Assembly: GCF_034377285.1 (NCBI RefSeq)
Contig: NZ_CP139715.1
Location: forward strand, 992,001 to 1,056,000
Direction of reading: 5' to 3'
DNA: 64,000 nt
From: Thalassobaculum sp. OXR-137
GTDB taxonomy: Bacteria; Pseudomonadota; Alphaproteobacteria; Thalassobaculales; Thalassobaculaceae
The notes beneath the pieces were generated by a model. It was not told the DNA's origin. It saw only the letters and a list, made by a program, of their open reading frames with translations, and searched no databases. Below, one piece after another: positions 40,799 to 46,682 of this stretch; positions within the stretch are counted from its first letter, which is position 1, and the number at the start of each line of letters is the position of its first letter. Made by a program: the position numbers and the translations under genes.

Positions 40799-41536
40799 TC
40801 AGTCGTAGTCGCGGGCGCCGAAGATCGCGGTGCCGACCCGGACATGGGTCGCGCCCATCTCGACGGCGGTCTCGAAATCCCCGCTCATCCCCATCGACAG
40901 GTTCGCCAACCCATTGCGCTTGGCGACCTCCCGCAGCATGGCGAAATGCAGCGCCGGATTGTCCTCCACCGGCGGGATACACATCAGCCCGACCACGGTA
41001 AGCCCCAGCATGTCGCGGCACTCGGCGATGAAGGCATCGGCCTCGGCGGGCGAGACGCCGGCCTTCTGCTCCTCCTCGCCCGTATTGACCTGGATGTAAC
41101 AGGCGAGCTTTCGGCCCTGTTTCTCCATCTCCTTGGCCAGTTCGCGGGCGAGCTTGGGGCGGTCCACTGTCTGGATCACGTCGAAGAGCTCGACCGCCTC
41201 CTTGACCTTGTTGGTCTGCAGCGGGCCGATGAGGTGCAGTTCCACGCCCTCGTACCGGCTGCGGAAGTCGGGCCATTTGCTCTTGGCTTCCTGGACCCGG
41301 TTCTCGCCGAAGACCCGCTGGCCGGCGAGCAGCGCCGCCTCGACCCGCTCCACCGGCTGGACCTTGCCGACCGCGATCAGCGTCACCGCGGCGGGATCCC
41401 GCTCCGCTTCGCCCGCCGCCTTCTCGATGGCGTGGCGGATGGTGTCGATATTGTCGGAGATCTGCCGCACCAGGTGCGGATCGACGGCGACCGGGCCGCC
41501 ATCCTCACCGACAGCCTGTCCCGTTGCCGCGCTCAT
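40799..41536 (-). CDS. YggS-family PLP homeostasis protein
   Basis: 245 aa. A single TIM barrel that binds pyridoxal phosphate through Lys58 in LIAVGKVQPVE; FGENRVQEAKSKW, LHLIGPLQTNK, LSMGMSGDFETAVEMGATHVRVG are family motifs (the last in two parts). YggS proteins have no known catalytic reaction but keep PLP levels balanced. Its ATG overlaps the stop of the TPR-sulfotransferase as ATGA, so it is the last gene of the cupin/sulfotransferase operon. More often it is found near proC or cell-division genes. Confidence 0.93.
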   Translation of the reverse strand: MSAATGQAVGEDGGPVAVDPHLVRQISDNIDTIRHAIEKAAGEAERDPAAVTLIAVGKVQPVERVEAALLAGQRVFGENRVQEAKSKWPDFRSRYEGVELHLIGPLQTNKVKEAVELFDVIQTVDRPKLARELAKEMEKQGRKLACYIQVNTGEEEQKAGVSPAEADAFIAECRDMLGLTVVGLMCIPPVEDNPALHFAMLREVAKRNGLANLSMGMSGDFETAVEMGATHVRVGTAIFGARDYD

Positions 41537-43443
41537 GTCTCTTCCTCCGCATATCCGTATCGCTCGATTTCCGCCGACAGCGCCTGGGCGATCGGCGCCA
41601 TAACGCTATCATACCGCCGCCAGCGGGCCAGCGCGGTTCGATAGATCGGTTGGGTGACCTGCGCCGCGCTCGGGGTCGCGAGGACACCGCGGCTGCGGGC
41701 ATGGTCGTGAAAGGCCAGCATGCCAGGCTCGAACGGCAGGTCGAGGAAGTCGGTGATCCGGCGGGCCTCCCGCTCCAGATCCGCGACCACGTCCTCGTAG
41801 CGCACGGCAAGGGCCGGCGTCTCGACCGCCCGGCAATAGCTCTCCCAGGCGGTGAAGGTCGCCCGGTACAGGGCCGCCGCCCCGTCGAGCGAGGAGAACG
41901 CCGCCATCCAGTCGTTGAGCACGAAGTTCTGCATGAAGCAGGACAGAACCACATCGCAGGGGTGGCGCAGGGCGAGAATGAACCGGGCGCCCGGAAACAC
42001 CCGCCGGATCAGCGCCACATGCGCCATGTTCAGCGGCATCTTGTCGACCGTGTAGCGGGTATCGGTGCGCCTGGTATGACGGGCCAGCCGGACACGGTAG
42101 TGCCGCCTCAACTCTTCAATTTCCGGCTCTTTCAAGGCCGGTAGATCCACCGGGTAGCGATGGGCCGACAGGGTCAGATCGGCGATCATCGCCGCGACCA
42201 GGGGCCGCTCCTCGACGACCTCGATCCGGGAATGGGCGTCCAGCACCTGGTCGATCAGGGTGGTGCCGGATCGCGGAAAGCCGACGACGAACAGCAGATC
42301 CGACCCGGCATCGCCCTCGCCGACCGGCGGTCCGGCGCGGTGGAGCTCGGCCAGCGCCTCGAGCTGCGCCAGCGCGCGGCCCGGATCCCGCTGCGGGCGG
42401 GCAGTGGCCACCTGACGGGCGTTGGCCTCGGCGAAGGCGGCGAAGGCCTCATCCGTGCGCCGCGCCGTTTCCAGGGACCGCGCCCGCTCGAACAGAAAGA
42501 GATGGCGCATCGCCGCCGGGCACCGGTCGATCCCGGCTTCCACGATCGACAGGGACCCCGCCGGATCGCCGCGTCGGCGGGCCACCGAAGCCAGCACCAG
42601 CGCCGCCGCCGCGGTGTCGGGCGCGGTCGCGAGAGCCCGGCGGGCCCAGCGCTCCGCGCCGTCGAGATCGGCCGCGTTCTCGGCGAATTCTGCAAGGAGA
42701 ACCAGGGCCGATGCCTGTCCGGGTGCGACGAGAAGGGCCCGGTCGGCCGCCTTGCGCGCCCGGCCGCCATCCCCGGCCGCCCGCTCGGTGGCCGCCAACT
42801 GGCGCAGCAGCACGCTGTCCAGCGGCCTGCGGCCGAGATGCGCCGACAGCAGGTCCACCGCCCGGTCATGCTGGTCGAGCTGGCCGTACAGACCCGCCAG
42901 TCCGACCACGGCCTCGCTGCCGGCGCCCCGGTCGATCGCCCGCCCGAGTTTGTCGGCCGCCTCCTCGAACCGGCCGAGGCGCCGCAGGGCCGTGCCATGG
43001 TTGGCGAGCACCGCCGGATCGGTGCCGCCGCCCGTGGCCGCCAGGGCCTCATAGGCGCCGATCGCCTCGTCCAGCCGATCGCAGGACAGGGCGGCCTCGG
43101 CCGTCAGCCGGATCACGGCGGGGTTCGCGCGGACCTGATCGGGCAGGCGGGACAGCAGGCCGAGGGCACCCTCGGGGTCGTCCAGCGCCAGGCGCACCTG
43201 CGCTCTGTTGACCAGGATCTGCGCGTCTCCGGGTTGCCGGCGGTCGGCCTCGACCAGCAGCCGGTCGGCCGTGGCGAAGGCACCGGCGCCCGCTTCCAGC
43301 ATGGCCAGGCGGAACAGGGCCGCGCCGGGGACGGCCCGGTGCTTCAGCAGAAGATCGTGGACCGGGCGGGCCGGCGCCGGATCTCCGGAGGAGAGGGATT
43401 TCTCCAGCGCGGTTCTGGCCTTGGGCGGGAGCGGGCCGGCCAT
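41533..43443 (-). CDS. TPR-repeat sulfotransferase
   Basis: 636 aa from the ATG at 43443. The N-terminal 370 residues are tetratricopeptide-like repeats (for example GDAQILVNRAQVRLALDDP and WARRALATAPDTAAAALVL). The C-terminal sulfotransferase domain has the PAPS 5'-phosphosulfate loop VVGFPRSGTTLIDQVLDAH near residue 384 and the 3'-phosphate motif RFILALRHPCDVVLSCF. This fusion is like that of many bacterial TPR-sulfotransferases, which share the fold of protein tyrosine sulfotransferases. The TPR part probably holds the acceptor. It starts 4 bases after the second sulfotransferase stops. Cytoplasmic by sequence. Confidence 0.88.
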   Translation of the reverse strand: MAGPLPPKARTALEKSLSSGDPAPARPVHDLLLKHRAVPGAALFRLAMLEAGAGAFATADRLLVEADRRQPGDAQILVNRAQVRLALDDPEGALGLLSRLPDQVRANPAVIRLTAEAALSCDRLDEAIGAYEALAATGGGTDPAVLANHGTALRRLGRFEEAADKLGRAIDRGAGSEAVVGLAGLYGQLDQHDRAVDLLSAHLGRRPLDSVLLRQLAATERAAGDGGRARKAADRALLVAPGQASALVLLAEFAENAADLDGAERWARRALATAPDTAAAALVLASVARRRGDPAGSLSIVEAGIDRCPAAMRHLFLFERARSLETARRTDEAFAAFAEANARQVATARPQRDPGRALAQLEALAELHRAGPPVGEGDAGSDLLFVVGFPRSGTTLIDQVLDAHSRIEVVEERPLVAAMIADLTLSAHRYPVDLPALKEPEIEELRRHYRVRLARHTRRTDTRYTVDKMPLNMAHVALIRRVFPGARFILALRHPCDVVLSCFMQNFVLNDWMAAFSSLDGAAALYRATFTAWESYCRAVETPALAVRYEDVVADLEREARRITDFLDLPFEPGMLAFHDHARSRGVLATPSAAQVTQPIYRTALARWRRYDSVMAPIAQALSAEIERYGYAEEET

Positions 43444-43447
43444 GGCA

Positions 43448-44296
43448 TCAGACCGTCGGCTTGCCGTTCTTGTCGATATACCGCAGCTCCCGCAGGACGT
43501 CGCCATGGACGTCGATCAGCTGGGCGACATGGGCGTCCGACAGGCTCTTGCGCCACCCGCCGACCTTGCCTTCGCGGAAGAAGGTCTGATCCGAGCGGAC
43601 CCGCTCGCGGAAGCCGGCCTGCTTCTCCTGTCGGGAGACCTCCTCGAAATTGCTGAACCGGATCGCCTTCTTGATCCGCTCGGGAGTGGCCGGGATGTTC
43701 AGGAACTTGACGATGCGGGAGAATTCCTTGAACGGCTTGGACCGCAGGTCCTCGTAGCGCAGGACCAGCGGCTCGAAGCCCGGCACGCCGGTCCAGCCCC
43801 GGTAATGCTCCCCCCAGGGGCCGAGATACTGGACGATCGCCGCCTTGGTGGTCGGCGTGTGCATGGTATCGCGGCACAGTCCGTCCACCACCTGTTCCAT
43901 CGTGCCGTTGTAGTGGGCGGCGAAGGACACGGCGACGTCGAACACGTTCCGCACGACGTAGATCGCCCCCATGGTCTGCTCGAGGCCGATGATCGGAATG
44001 TCCCCGGCAAAACCGATGCGGTTATGGGTCTTCACGATCGAGGTCTCTGGCCGGGAGGCGAGCTTCTGCTGCAGCACGGGGCGCAGCTGATCGAGCTCCT
44101 GGTCGGTCATCTCGTCGATCGGCCGCTGGGTCAGCGACTGGTAGAGATCCCGCTGGGCGTCGCCGAAGGAGACCACGTTGAGCTCGTTGATCGACACCGG
44201 CGCCGCGCCGTTTCGGAAGAGGTTCTCCAGGAAGATCCGGATCCAGGTGTTGCCCGATTTGGGGTAGGAGGCCAGCCAGAGGATTCCGCCGGACAT
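43448..44296 (-). CDS. Sulfotransferase domain protein
   Basis: 282 aa. The PAPS 5'-loop is SYPKSGNTW (10-18) close to the N-terminus, as in cytosolic Sulfotransfer_1 enzymes, and the 3'-phosphate motif is YVVRNVFDVAVSFAAHY. RYEDLRSKPFKEFSRIV and FREGKVGGWRKSL are also typical, the latter being the GxxGxWK-like end. It transfers sulfate from PAPS to a hydroxyl or amine acceptor, identity unknown. It follows the cupin gene after 3 bases and precedes a second, structurally different sulfotransferase. Confidence 0.9.
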   Translation of the reverse strand: MSGGILWLASYPKSGNTWIRIFLENLFRNGAAPVSINELNVVSFGDAQRDLYQSLTQRPIDEMTDQELDQLRPVLQQKLASRPETSIVKTHNRIGFAGDIPIIGLEQTMGAIYVVRNVFDVAVSFAAHYNGTMEQVVDGLCRDTMHTPTTKAAIVQYLGPWGEHYRGWTGVPGFEPLVLRYEDLRSKPFKEFSRIVKFLNIPATPERIKKAIRFSNFEEVSRQEKQAGFRERVRSDQTFFREGKVGGWRKSLSDAHVAQLIDVHGDVLRELRYIDKNGKPTV

Positions 44297-44299
44297 CGG

Positions 44300-45496
44300 T
44301 CAGACCTGCACCGGAAAGATGACCTTGTTCTGGATCAGGGCCTGGATCAGCGTCCGGCCCGCCTCGCCCCGCTGGCCATGGGCTTCGGAGAGCTCGGAGA
44401 GCCAGAATTCCTCGCGCTCGAGGATCCAGGCGAGCATCTCGCGGTCCGCGGCGGCGCGCTGGAACGTCTGGCCGCGATGGGTGACTGTCAGGCCGTCCCC
44501 GGTGCCCTGAACCACGGGCGCATAGCGCGAGACGAAGAAATATCCGTCGGTATCGCGCTCCGGGAAGCGATAGTCCGCGACCTTGTCGAAGATGCGGTCC
44601 TTCTGGAAGCCGGCCACGAAGTCATGGAACGCCGGATCGGCAAGCACCTTGTTCACGGTCTGGCCGATACCCTGGAGATAGGCGGCAAGCGCCGCGCGAT
44701 CCTCGAAATGCGGCAGCCGCTTGCGGAAATACTCCTGGCCCTGCATCTCGCGGGCGAGCATCTCCAGCACCGCGACCCCGACCGCCGGCGTCGAGCCGAA
44801 GGACAGGTGCAGCGAGGCCGTGTCGGTGGCGAGCGCGTCGTGATACAGGCCGCGCGGCAGGTAGAGAATGTCGCCCGGCCGCGTGGTCACCTGCTGCGCC
44901 AGCTTGCCCTTCATGCGGTCGTGCTGCTCGGCGGTGAAGTCGCTGGGGCGGCTGCCCGGGACGAAGGACGCCTCCGGAAACCGGCCTTCGTAGAGGTTCC
45001 AGGTCTTCTCGCCTTCGATCTGCAGGGCGAAGACGTCCATGCAGTCGAAATGGGAGGCGTAGCCCCGCACCGCCTTCCAGGAGCAATAGGCGTTGCAGGA
45101 CGTGTTGGCCCCGGTGAGCCGCTCGAGCGCCCGGGAAACCGACGCGATCCGAGGATCGATCCCTTCCAGGAAATCGAGGACGAAGGTCGCCCCCTTCTGC
45201 AGCAGGGCGGTCACCTTGCCCCGGTCCGGCCGCAGGCCGGACTCGCCCTGGCGCCCATGTCCCGGCCGGCAGAACTGGGCCGCAGGCAGCACCTTGCCGT
45301 CCAGCGCCATCTCGATCGTATGCCCGTCCCAGAGCTTCGGGCGGGCCAGCAGGTCGTTCATGTGCGACCAGGAGAACACCGTCTCGACGCTGCGGACAGC
45401 CCCGGCCTCGTAATACGGCGCCTTGTCGAAATACTGGTCGAGAAAGCGATCGCGGTCGATCGCGCGGAACAGCCGGTCGAAGGAAACGTCGGTCAT
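44300..45496 (-). CDS. JmjC/cupin-type Fe(II)/2-oxoglutarate oxygenase
   Basis: 398 aa. The metal triad can be read: His149 and Asp151 in ASHFDCMDVFALQ and His219 in LPRGLYHDA. The order HxD, then EGEKTWNLYEG, then a PGDILYLPRG turn before the distal His, is that of the cupin_4 ribosomal-oxygenase group (YcfD/NO66-like), which hydroxylate side chains of proteins. The C-terminal 150 residues would be the dimerisation and winged-helix part. The substrate is unknown; its neighbours are two sulfotransferases, so it may create or sit beside a sulfated product. First gene of the operon. Confidence 0.83.
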   Translation of the reverse strand: MTDVSFDRLFRAIDRDRFLDQYFDKAPYYEAGAVRSVETVFSWSHMNDLLARPKLWDGHTIEMALDGKVLPAAQFCRPGHGRQGESGLRPDRGKVTALLQKGATFVLDFLEGIDPRIASVSRALERLTGANTSCNAYCSWKAVRGYASHFDCMDVFALQIEGEKTWNLYEGRFPEASFVPGSRPSDFTAEQHDRMKGKLAQQVTTRPGDILYLPRGLYHDALATDTASLHLSFGSTPAVGVAVLEMLAREMQGQEYFRKRLPHFEDRAALAAYLQGIGQTVNKVLADPAFHDFVAGFQKDRIFDKVADYRFPERDTDGYFFVSRYAPVVQGTGDGLTVTHRGQTFQRAAADREMLAWILEREEFWLSELSEAHGQRGEAGRTLIQALIQNKVIFPVQV

Positions 45497-45556: not shown

Positions 45557-45590
45557 CAAAAAAGAAGGGAGCCGCCCGAAGGCGGCTCCC
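45557..45590 (-). terminator. Intrinsic terminator of the porin gene
   Basis: On the minus strand GGGAGCCGCC, TTCG loop, GGCGGCTCCC and then TTCTTTTTT. The 10-bp stem with a UUCG tetraloop and T-run lies 20 bases after the porin stop and separates it from the cupin operon on the same strand. Confidence 0.95.
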
Positions 45591-45611
45591 CAAATCAGAC
45601 TGTCTTCTGGA

Positions 45612-46682
45612 TTAGAAGGACAGACGGATACCGGTGACGAAGTAGGTGGCCTCGATCTCGTCGGAGCCGGCAGTACCATCGTCCTCGAACTCAGCATAGC
45701 CCAGGGTCGCAGCGGCGGTGACGCCCGGACCCAGAGCATACTTGCCCGACAGATGCACGGTGTCCTGCGCGGAGCTGTTGTCAACTTCGCCATGGAAGTA
45801 GGACAGGCTGACGCCGAACGGGCCGGTCTCGTAGGAGACGCCGAGGTTGTAGGACTGACCTTCGGTCGCGCCTTCCTCAGCAGCGTAGGACGCGCCCACG
45901 CCGAAGCCGCCAACACCGAGGGTCACACCGGCGCTGTAGCTCTCCGGCTCATCGGTGCCCGAAGCGGACTCCATGAAGGTGCCGTAACCGCCGGACACGC
46001 CGAGGGACACGCCGCCGAAGTCGCCGGAGTAGTTGGCGCCGAACGTCACCATGTCGGAGAGGCCGGTGTTGCGGTCAACCGGAGCGAATGTCACGTCCTG
46101 GAGGTTGTCCGGGGAGTACGACGCACCCAGCTGGAAGCCGGCGAAACGCGGGGTGTAGTAGGTCAGCTTCTCGGAGTCGCTCGTACGGCCCGGCTCGACA
46201 TAGGTCGAACCCAGAACGCCGCCGTAGTAGCCGGACCTGGAGACGTTGCTGCCCACGAGAGCCGCCCAGTTGCCCTGGTCGCCGGAGTTGATGCCGATAC
46301 CGAAATCGCTCGGAGCGTAATGCATCTTGTACATCGCCGAGTTTTCGGAGCCCAGGTTGATCTCACCGAACGAGCCCCTCATGATCAGATACGACTCGTC
46401 GATCTGGTCAGAGCTGTTGCTGTTGGCCTCGAGCTGGACGTTGATACCGAACTCGATACCGTTATCCAGGGTCGTGGAGCCCTTGAAGTGAATTTCAGAG
46501 TCGGACCTGACGTCGAAGCCGTCAACGTCGCGGCCGGTGGAGTCGTCGACCGACGTGTAGCCGAACCACTGCTCCATGTAACCGCCAACCGAAACCTGCA
46601 GCTTTTCAGCGGCCATGGCGGACGGTGCGGCAATCAGGCCGGCGGCAACGATGGCCGTCGAGCCGAGAAGAACCTTCTTCAT
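45612..46682 (-). CDS. Gram-negative porin
   Basis: 356 aa. A clear signal peptide (MKKVLLGSTAIVAAG..., cleavage after SAMA near residue 24) is followed by alternating strands rich in Gly, Tyr, Ser and acidic residues, such as GYMEQWFGYTSVDD, LNLG-like turns and FGVGASYAAEEG. It ends VTGIRLSF with the terminal Phe needed for outer-membrane insertion by BAM. Size and loops are those of 16-stranded general porins of alphaproteobacteria. GGGAG lies upstream of the start, and a strong terminator follows, so it is transcribed alone, probably at high level. Confidence 0.94.
   Translation of the reverse strand: MKKVLLGSTAIVAAGLIAAPSAMAAEKLQVSVGGYMEQWFGYTSVDDSTGRDVDGFDVRSDSEIHFKGSTTLDNGIEFGINVQLEANSNSSDQIDESYLIMRGSFGEINLGSENSAMYKMHYAPSDFGIGINSGDQGNWAALVGSNVSRSGYYGGVLGSTYVEPGRTSDSEKLTYYTPRFAGFQLGASYSPDNLQDVTFAPVDRNTGLSDMVTFGANYSGDFGGVSLGVSGGYGTFMESASGTDEPESYSAGVTLGVGGFGVGASYAAEEGATEGQSYNLGVSYETGPFGVSLSYFHGEVDNSSAQDTVHLSGKYALGPGVTAAATLGYAEFEDDGTAGSDEIEATYFVTGIRLSF

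Follow-up and report, generated by a model that had tools for sequence, protein, structure and literature searches.

Which molecule is modified by the enzymes of a short oxygenase-sulfotransferase operon was examined in a 64,000-nucleotide stretch of Thalassobaculum sp. OXR-137 DNA (the window). The initial annotation had described three genes, for a JmjC-like cupin oxygenase, a Sulfotransfer_1-type enzyme (ST1) and a TPR-fused sulfotransferase, separated by 3 and 4 bases, and had suggested that they hydroxylate and then sulfate a protein, peptide or glycan. Gene positions and both gaps were confirmed, and Pfam supported all three family calls. The most informative neighbour of the operon, absent from that annotation, is an outer-membrane porin gene 115 bp upstream of the cupin gene (Table 1). 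On sequence grounds we favor, with a probability of roughly 0.58, the reading that ST1 is a cytosolic O-sulfotransferase acting on Ser/Thr133 of the pre-porin, whose predicted eyelet would thereby gain the negative charge that an Asp supplies in related porins.

Table 1. Features of the porin-cupin-sulfotransferase locus (window coordinates)
Feature	Position	Strand	Description
yggS (YggS-family PLP protein)	40799..41536	-	TIGR00044; old neighbour, not partner
TPR-sulfotransferase	41533..43443	-	636 aa; Sulfotransfer_3 5.9e-35 + TPR repeats; TPST-like catalytic domain
ST1, Sulfotransfer_1 PAPS sulfotransferase	43448..44296	-	282 aa; Pfam Sulfotransfer_1 1.3e-25; predicted porin L3 Ser/Thr O-sulfotransferase
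Cupin, JmjC_2 (ROX-type) Fe(II)/2-oxoglutarate oxygenase	44300..45496	-	398 aa; Pfam JmjC_2 3.8e-22; H149/D151/H219, K164
Terminator-like hairpin, porin/cupin interval	45566..45591	-	11-pair stem, 9 GC pairs, T-rich tail
Porin_4 outer-membrane porin	45612..46682	-	356 aa, presumed signal peptide; predicted substrate
Porin Ser133 codon TCC	46284..46286	-	predicted sulfation site, loop L3, motif G-I-N-S-G-D

The TPR-sulfotransferase was taken to start with an ATG at position 43443 (43506 in the mechanical ORF), and its stop and yggS overlap by 4 bases. Two terminator-like hairpins were found in the whole window, compared with 0.9 expected from shuffles. The initial annotation had sought a small acceptor gene; no small gene recurred in the gene maps, in which genes of at least 70 aa were called.

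ST1 scored 90.7 bits with its Pfam family (cut-off 22), and its N-terminus leads directly into the PAPS motif. PKSGxTW, the 5′-phosphosulfate motif, was invariant in 15 sequences (P12-K13-S14-G15-N16-T17-W18), as were H91 (in KTHN), R116 and S124, which we take, by their roles in SULT enzymes, to be the catalytic His and the 3′-phosphate-binding residues. APS kinase was present in 6/6 ST1 genomes checked, which is weak support because ordinary assimilation also uses this enzyme. In the TPR-sulfotransferase, PRSGTTL and the following Glu, presumably a catalytic-region residue, aligned with TPST1 (9wp1) and 8w5z. The H149, D151 and H219 of the cupin, reported in the initial annotation, were invariant in 15 sequences and, together with K164, in a set of 36 aligned sequences, as in an Fe(II)/2-oxoglutarate JmjC_2 site. 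The AlphaFold2 (AF2) model of the cupin (pLDDT 92) was nearest in fold to NO66, MINA53, YcfD and YxbC; the top Foldseek matches (NO66, MINA53, YcfD) spanned most of its length with TM-scores of 0.47–0.57, so the domain orientation differs. As modeled, the cupin has the ROX-type layout, in which helical and winged-helix-like parts come after the JmjC domain, the winged helix being read from the secondary structure of the model.

Within Thalassobaculales, cupin and ST1 genes were adjacent in 18/18 strong orthologous loci, and the TPR-sulfotransferase came next in 17 of the 18 (the window and 17 fetched loci; L033 lacked it, and in L030 it was split into two ORFs). The three genes are a conserved block in this order, and their arrangement is beyond chance. 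Among 40 cupin loci fetched from alphaproteobacteria outside Thalassobaculales, ST1 was nearby in none and the TPR-sulfotransferase was beside the cupin in three; the triad is therefore not the core unit. Separation of the genes in most genomes, which the initial annotation had said would count against its proposal, was thus seen outside the order but not inside it. A porin was present and ST1 absent in 20 of the 31 strong cupin loci outside the order, and in locus L117 cupin and porin adjoined each other, with yggS and DUF3576 elsewhere. In 40 cupin-negative control genomes from 40 different families, a Porin_4 gene lay near DUF3576-leuS in 33; ST1-type sulfotransferases were beside the porin in 13/40 (13 of the 33 with porin) and at the locus without a porin in 0/40. 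The porin gene thus matters more than the triad. The gene for YggS, which the initial annotation had not considered an obvious partner, kept its place with or without cupin and ST1.

Of 385 alphaproteobacterial genomes sampled, 87 had an ST1 match at E ≤ 1e-40. When 40 hand-chosen ST1-centred stretches were inspected, with neighbours outside Thalassobaculales scanned for eight families, a porin lay within 3 kb in 24. Of the remaining 16, seven start or stop near the gene and nine do not (L202, L208, L209, L211, L212, L214, L218, L219, L239). One stretch (L220) carried a porin+ST1+ST1 unit twice in tandem and another (L226) three porins with one ST1. Sulfotransferase tandem arrays also occur at the locus (one genome has about ten such genes), and in another family TPR-glycosyltransferase-like arrays adjoin the same cupin oxygenase.

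The porin matched PF13609 (Porin_4) at 2.1e-53 (182.6 bits). Its AF2 model (pLDDT 86; Foldseek matches PorB and Omp32) has the general-porin architecture, a 16-strand barrel with a long L3 of 57 residues between strands 5 and 6 (106–112 and 170–176), and places Ser133 inside this predicted constriction loop. Ser/Thr occupied the Ser133 column in 60/62 ST1-linked porins versus 3/47 others, with a phi of 0.91 (next column 0.65; 2143 column-by-class tests). The same column was the strongest in Pagel tests on the porin tree, which covered 318 of 342 columns (LR 45.7, p = 2.8e-9; next best LR 24.7). Four re-alignments gave Ser/Thr in 60, 60, 60 and 53 of the 62 ST1-linked porins and in 3/47 others each time. 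On the full porin tree there were 11 independent pairs, with Ser/Thr accompanying ST1 in 7–10 and never the reverse (median p 0.008); restriction to well-supported branches left five pairs (median p 0.25), with which a sign test cannot reach 0.05. Columns 47, 353 and 301, outside the loop, also tracked ST1 (LR 18–21), so lineage accounts for part of the signal.

Discovery of the site and its first test drew on one data set. In held-out genomes, which have families in common with the discovery set, Ser/Thr was found in 20/24 ST1-linked porins and 4/21 others (Fisher 2e-5), a weaker association than in the discovery set; the exceptions were Asp in 4/24 linked porins and the Ser/Thr in 4/21 others. 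Six held-out rows had been dropped, two from genomes already used (L270, L275) and four with contig ends near the porin (S in L279, L283 and L314; D in L303); with these four restored as negatives, Ser/Thr was present in 7/25 others (Fisher 1.5e-4). For L279 and L283, another genome of each family has ST1 beside the porin, but their source genomes, G310 and G259, gave no ST1 match at E ≤ 1e-40. L314 is probably a real counterexample, because yggS directly follows the porin.

Asp occupied the Ser133 column in 28/47 ST1-negative porins and in 17/26 unlinked porin paralogues of ST1-positive genomes; in the Thalassobaculum genome itself the linked porin reads GINSGD and an unlinked one GINDSD. The pattern was reversed in one genome (G169), where the linked porin has D and one unlinked porin T. 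Ser/Thr was also found in 7/26 unlinked porins of ST1 genomes, six of the seven in Thalassobaculaceae; adjacency of porin and ST1 is therefore not required.

We propose that this locus serves to produce and modify an outer-membrane porin. ST1, PAPS-dependent and cytosolic, would O-sulfate one Ser/Thr of L3 (Ser133 in the window) before export by Sec, the route that we assume for this porin from its family, and the sulfate would give the pore constriction a negative charge at a position often occupied by Asp in related porins. In Thalassobaculales the ROX-type oxygenase and the TPR-sulfotransferase would have joined the porin locus, and they probably modify the same porin (hydroxylation and a second sulfation). 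No porin column stood out for cupin presence (best LR 19.1, Pagel test on the porin tree). Sulfation could also license porin export, tying porin supply to PAPS and hence to sulfate supply, because SecY passage of OmpC/OmpF needs the acidic eyelet residues (PMC7530735). A broader version is possible, if on balance doubtful: Ser/Thr O-sulfation would be a supply-dependent Asp equivalent in alphaproteobacterial porins, PAPS would set pore charge and perhaps SecY export, and the sulfotransferases, oxygenase and TPR-glycosyltransferase-like arrays would form a wider porin-modification system.

Other acceptors for ST1 were weighed against this reading. It is unlikely that ST1 acts on another envelope molecule (LPS, a glycan or a lipid), with porin and ST1 a cassette and the L3 motif a lineage marker. 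The adjoining lptE and other old neighbours, the mere five changes of ST1 label forced by supported branches, the nine of 40 ST1 stretches with neither a porin within 3 kb nor a contig end nearby, and the three columns outside the loop all speak for it, and glycan or lipid genes may lie among the outside-order neighbours scanned for eight families. Pure lineage, however, should raise many columns alike, whereas one stands far above the rest, and Ser and Asp alternate between paralogues of one genome. Sulfation of a loop tyrosine (Tyr118 or Tyr122), on the model of Teg12-type and TPST enzymes, whose acceptors are phenols, would make Ser133 part of a recognition motif, and we find it quite improbable: Tyr is missing at 122 in about one third and at 118 in nearly half of the ST1-linked porins, 60/62 of which have Ser/Thr133, and Asp133 marks most unlinked paralogues, some with the Tyr retained. 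Consistent with a tyrosine acceptor are Y122 in 41/62 ST1-linked porins versus 7/47 others (LR 18.0), H121 in 30 versus 0 (LR 24.7), and the aromatic hydroxyls that are sulfated by the best-scoring solved relatives of ST1, Teg12 and Teg14.

The relay of the initial annotation, in which a hydroxyl newly introduced by the cupin is then sulfated by a sulfotransferase, appears very unlikely as a fixed pathway. Although the three genes lie together in 17/18 Thalassobaculales loci, and cupin and TPR-sulfotransferase in 3/40 outside loci, cupin and ST1 were together in 0/40 of the latter, 20/31 strong cupin loci had a porin without ST1, ST1 stood beside a porin without cupin in 13/40 controls, and the ST1-tracking Ser/Thr already bears a hydroxyl, so no prior hydroxylation is needed. 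The more general part of that proposal, a protein-directed oxygenase and protein- or peptide-type sulfotransferases, is likely, and these genes adjoin a possible protein substrate, the porin. That the cupin is a ribosomal-protein oxygenase at the porin locus by chance is distinctly unlikely. Its fold and its status as the sole JmjC_2 protein of this genome fit such a role, and since 33/40 controls have the porin at this locus but no cupin, cupin-porin adjacency alone is weak. Against it, the cupin had matches in only 52/385 genomes although ribosomes are universal, and the L117 cupin adjoins a porin that is not beside yggS or DUF3576. Orthology to RoxA/YcfD, the ribosomal L16 arginine hydroxylase whose clade the initial annotation had named as contrary to its proposal, was rejected on similarity (29% across 83 aa, and a score of 14.9 bits against the family HMM), and YcfD was not among the 13 PDB matches of the cupin profile (up to E 0.1).

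To our knowledge, O-sulfation of protein Ser/Thr is rare, and very few examples of protein sulfation in bacteria have been described (RaxST); a literature search found no Ser/Thr O-sulfation of bacterial proteins and no sulfation of an outer-membrane channel. If porin sulfation by ST1 is true, it would be the first bacterial protein sulfation known to us on an outer-membrane channel and on Ser/Thr, with the sister genes that encode Asp at this site as a built-in genetic control. It would also give the "sulfotransferase" genes of 87/385 sampled alphaproteobacterial genomes a substrate and a single-residue site, and tie pore selectivity to sulfur metabolism.

Among known systems, the TPR-sulfotransferase has a catalytic half whose closest relatives of solved structure are TPST1/2, animal Golgi enzymes acting on Tyr; it differs from them in its fused TPR repeats. 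Teg12 and Teg14, the best-scoring solved relatives of ST1, are, like StaL, glycopeptide sulfotransferases; enzymes of this group belong to biosynthetic clusters, act on peptide hydroxyls of antibiotic aglycones and are not known to act on membrane proteins. The ROX JmjC hydroxylases (NO66, MINA53, YcfD/RoxA, YxbC) resemble the cupin in fold, in the HxD...H triad and, within the corresponding segment, in an invariant Lys, but the cupin is not orthologous to RoxA, and its gene lies at a locus with a porin in Thalassobaculales as well as in 20/31 strong outside loci. In Xanthomonas, a Tyr-sulfated peptide tied to a type I system is made from RaxX, a precursor of 60 residues (PMC4216712; PMC6637879). 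There the gene for the PAPS sulfotransferase RaxST likewise lies beside that for the protein it sulfates, and sulfation precedes secretion (PMC4216712); the window's predicted substrate is instead a porin, and its predicted site a Ser/Thr in the pore loop. In OmpC/OmpF, negative L3-helix residues determine selectivity and are also required for passage through SecY (PMC7530735); those charges are encoded, whereas in the window porin an enzyme would supply one.

The genes of the locus are listed in the table below in transcription order; the window genome comprises 3 contigs and 5.65 Mb. The initial annotation had suggested looking for a small acceptor gene beside the operon, and no recurrent one was present near it among the called genes (at least 70 aa).

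Features of the porin-sulfotransferase locus in the window
Feature	Coordinates	Strand	Remark
Porin_4 porin	46682-45612	minus	first in transcription order
Terminator-like hairpin	45591-45566	minus	between porin and JmjC_2 oxygenase
JmjC_2 oxygenase (cupin)	45496-44300	minus	
ST1, Sulfotransfer_1 enzyme	44296-43448	minus	
TPR-Sulfotransfer_3 enzyme	43443-41533	minus	
yggS	41536-40799	minus	last in transcription order

The cupin was classified as a ROX-type oxygenase by its active site and fold and was the only JmjC_2 match in the window genome; identity with the ribosomal L16 hydroxylase RoxA, considered in the initial annotation, was ruled out by similarity. The same protein resembled phage family phrog_8014 (PHROGs, E 1.9e-24, function unassigned), and phages therefore carry kin of this oxygenase. 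ST1 contained the sulfotransferase motifs and had the PAPS motif at the very start of the protein, consistent with a cytosolic location. APS kinase was found in 6/6 genomes checked.

Within Thalassobaculales, a cupin match was present in 19/36 genomes, and 18 loci were strong orthologues. ST1 directly followed the cupin in all 18, and in larger stretches the order porin-cupin-ST1-TPR enzyme-yggS was preserved across the loci of the order. One strong locus (L033) lacked the TPR enzyme; in two (L028 and L031) no porin was visible, the contigs beginning close to the cupin. At L030:4647-6574 the TPR-sulfotransferase was divided into two ORFs, a TPR part and a sulfotransferase part. The cupin of a genome of the same genus (G025) was 99% identical to that of the window. 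Two single-contig 1.5-Mb genomes assigned to the genus of the 5.6-Mb window genome (G023 and G024) had no cupin, and both look strongly reduced.

Across the class, a cupin match (E ≤ 0.001) was present in 52/385 genomes. Beyond Thalassobaculales, 40 of the 56 listed places were read, consisting of the 36 strongest and four weaker, hand-chosen ones. ST1 was present in 0/40 and a TPR-sulfotransferase in 3/40. The three-gene linkage proposed in the initial annotation thus held within the order and not outside it, where the cupin-ST1-TPR enzyme triad falls apart. A porin lay within 3 kb of the cupin in 21/40 of these loci (20/31 of those above 200 bits), usually at the site between yggS and DUF3576-leuS-lptE-holA. 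The only outside locus with a cupin-porin pair and no yggS or DUF3576 in reach was L117:8077-10750, from a small 1.7 Mb genome. At three loci from one family (L093:1289-8071, L115:1408-7410 and L118:121-6118), the cupin adjoined arrays of TPR proteins, three or four per locus and ten in all, and a Pfam search with two of them named the TPR part alone. Their C-terminal domain was read as glycosyltransferase-like, which suggests a glycosylating neighbor of the same oxygenase.

As controls, the stretch upstream of DUF3576 was read in 40 cupin-negative genomes, one from each of 40 family codes, hand-picked among the DUF3576 matches listed, with some stretches short at contig ends. A porin was present in 33/40. 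The porin is therefore a long-standing member of the locus, and its adjacency to the cupin proves little on its own. A first reading of the cupin-porin pair as the core of the locus was dropped for this reason, and adjacency was weakened as functional proof.

ST1-type genes adjoined the porin in 13 of these 40 controls, and ST1 without a porin was never seen among them. A profile search for ST1 gave a match in 87/385 genomes at E ≤ 1e-40, and many of the loci read had the order porin, one to four ST1 genes, yggS. In 40 ST1-centered stretches, hand-picked in part for seeming to lie away from DUF3576 and in part for tandem copies, a porin was within 3 kb in 24, which is not a rate; seven of the other 16 were cut by contig ends and nine were not. 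About ten tandem ST1-type pieces extended up to yggS at L222:14-8000, where the contig start falls inside the array, and a porin-ST1-ST1 unit occurred twice in tandem at L220:6326-13127.

To relate porin sequence to ST1, 110 porins from these loci were aligned and labeled by the presence of ST1 within 6 kb. One porin (L151) was left out of every ST1 count because of a contig break beside it; in that genome, ST1 stands at the start of a different contig, beside a fragment of a porin. At the column of Ser133, the 62 ST1-linked porins had S in 51, T in 9 and D in 2, and the 47 other porins had D in 28, T in 3 and S in none, with rows that come from related genomes and with two or three porins at one locus counted separately. 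The association with ST1 had a phi of 0.91, compared with 0.65 for the next-best column (2143 column-by-class tests). Under four other alignment settings, S/T was present in 60, 60, 60 and 53 of the 62 ST1-linked porins versus 3/47 of the others each time. Lys/Arg content was lower in ST1-linked porins, a comparison of composition by group that is confounded by relatedness.

For phylogenetic correction, a porin tree was built without the loop columns using a quick method (50/107 inner branches starred). In Pagel's test, the Ser133 column ranked top of the 318 columns tested of 342 (LR 45.7, p = 2.8e-9), followed by His121 (LR 24.7) and Asn132 (LR 21.0), both in the same loop, and then by column 47 (LR 20.8) and columns 353 and 301 outside the loop; columns 134 and 122 also appeared. 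The ST1 label changed 11 times on the tree, of which the starred branches force 5. The best tree yielded 11 independent pairs; S/T went with ST1 in 7 to 10 of them and against it in none (median p 0.008). With starred branches only, 5 pairs were left, a number with which the sign test cannot reach 0.05. No porin residue stood out as tied to the cupin, the best-scoring change being an aromatic lost at column 100 (LR 19.1).

The rule was then applied to held-out genomes, with negatives drawn from previously unexamined genomes of the class. S/T was present in 20/24 ST1-linked and 4/21 other porins (Fisher 2e-5) in a set that shares families with the first, so that the test bears mainly on new sequences and less on new lineages. 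Rows were dropped where the genome had already been used (L270, L275) or at contig ends (L279, L283, L303, L314); restoring L303 and L314 gave 5/23 for the others (Fisher 3e-5), and restoring all four contig-end rows as negatives gave 7/25 (Fisher 1.5e-4). The order of G239, considered as a hold-out, offered only 2 genomes and was set aside; that of G374 was ST1-positive in 24/25, so it held no usable negatives.

Paralogues were searched in 39 ST1-bearing genomes, where unlinked porins were those without ST1 within about 1.5 kb or 2.5 kb. At the site, 26 unlinked porins of the same family had D in 17, S/T in 7 and another residue in 2 (L339 and L342), a count without L343 and L364 (no usable porin) and L171 (not recovered). 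In the window genome, the linked porin has GINSGD and the unlinked one (L170) GINDSD; the latter was read from a 321-aa open frame, and its matched stretch is reported to contain one stop. The corresponding motifs were GLVSPN versus GLNDPN in G076, and in G416 GLNSPN twice beside ST1 with GFDDPV and GINDPT elsewhere. G169 was reversed, with D beside ST1 (L160:2782-3864) and T (GINTPD) in the unlinked porin (L354:2547-3629). Six Thalassobaculaceae porins away from ST1 (L347, L353, L355, L361, L333 and L335) had Ser at the site (GINSGD, GLNSGD or GVNSGD); these may be modified in trans. Exchange of Ser/Thr and Asp would be expected of a site acting by negative charge, whether made by modification or encoded, and is analogous to the exchange known from phosphosites.

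In the structure of the porin predicted by AF2 (pLDDT 86), Ser133 lies in a long loop between strands 106-112 and 170-176, and Foldseek matched the model to PorB and Omp32. We take this loop to be L3, the constriction loop of general porins.

From these sequence comparisons, ST1 would sulfate the L3 Ser/Thr of the porin in the cytosol, while the porin is unfolded, with a probability of roughly 0.6. Ser/Thr O-sulfation as a supply-dependent equivalent of Asp in the porin constriction across alphaproteobacteria is a more tentative proposal. Confidence in porin sulfation and in this proposal was slightly lowered, and that in the alternative described next slightly raised, on two grounds: a search at E ≤ 1e-40 gave no ST1 in the genomes of two Ser-bearing rows dropped from the held-out set, and ST1 may have glycan or lipid genes as neighbors. 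Action of ST1 on some other envelope molecule, with the enzyme traveling with the porin as a cassette, would accommodate such neighbors and the shared location; we consider it improbable, given the top-ranked association of ST1 with a single porin column.

Alongside porin sulfation by ST1, the cupin would most likely hydroxylate the same porin, because its gene accompanies the porin in 20 of the 31 strong outside loci and because in L117 it has a porin as neighbor with neither yggS nor DUF3576 in reach. The enzyme may instead have a ribosomal or different target, which fits the presence of the porin in the cupin-negative controls. Among the papers listed by literature searches on porin sulfation, JmjC with porin, sulfoserine, and TonB-receptor/cupin/halogenase clusters, none was relevant, and a search on the exchange of phosphosites for Asp added nothing to the argument.

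In E. coli OmpC and OmpF, acidic residues of the eyelet helix set selectivity and are required for SecY passage (PMC7530735). Among the solved relatives of ST1, Teg12 and Teg14 scored best, followed by animal SULTs, and the catalytic half of the TPR enzyme was nearest to TPST1/2.
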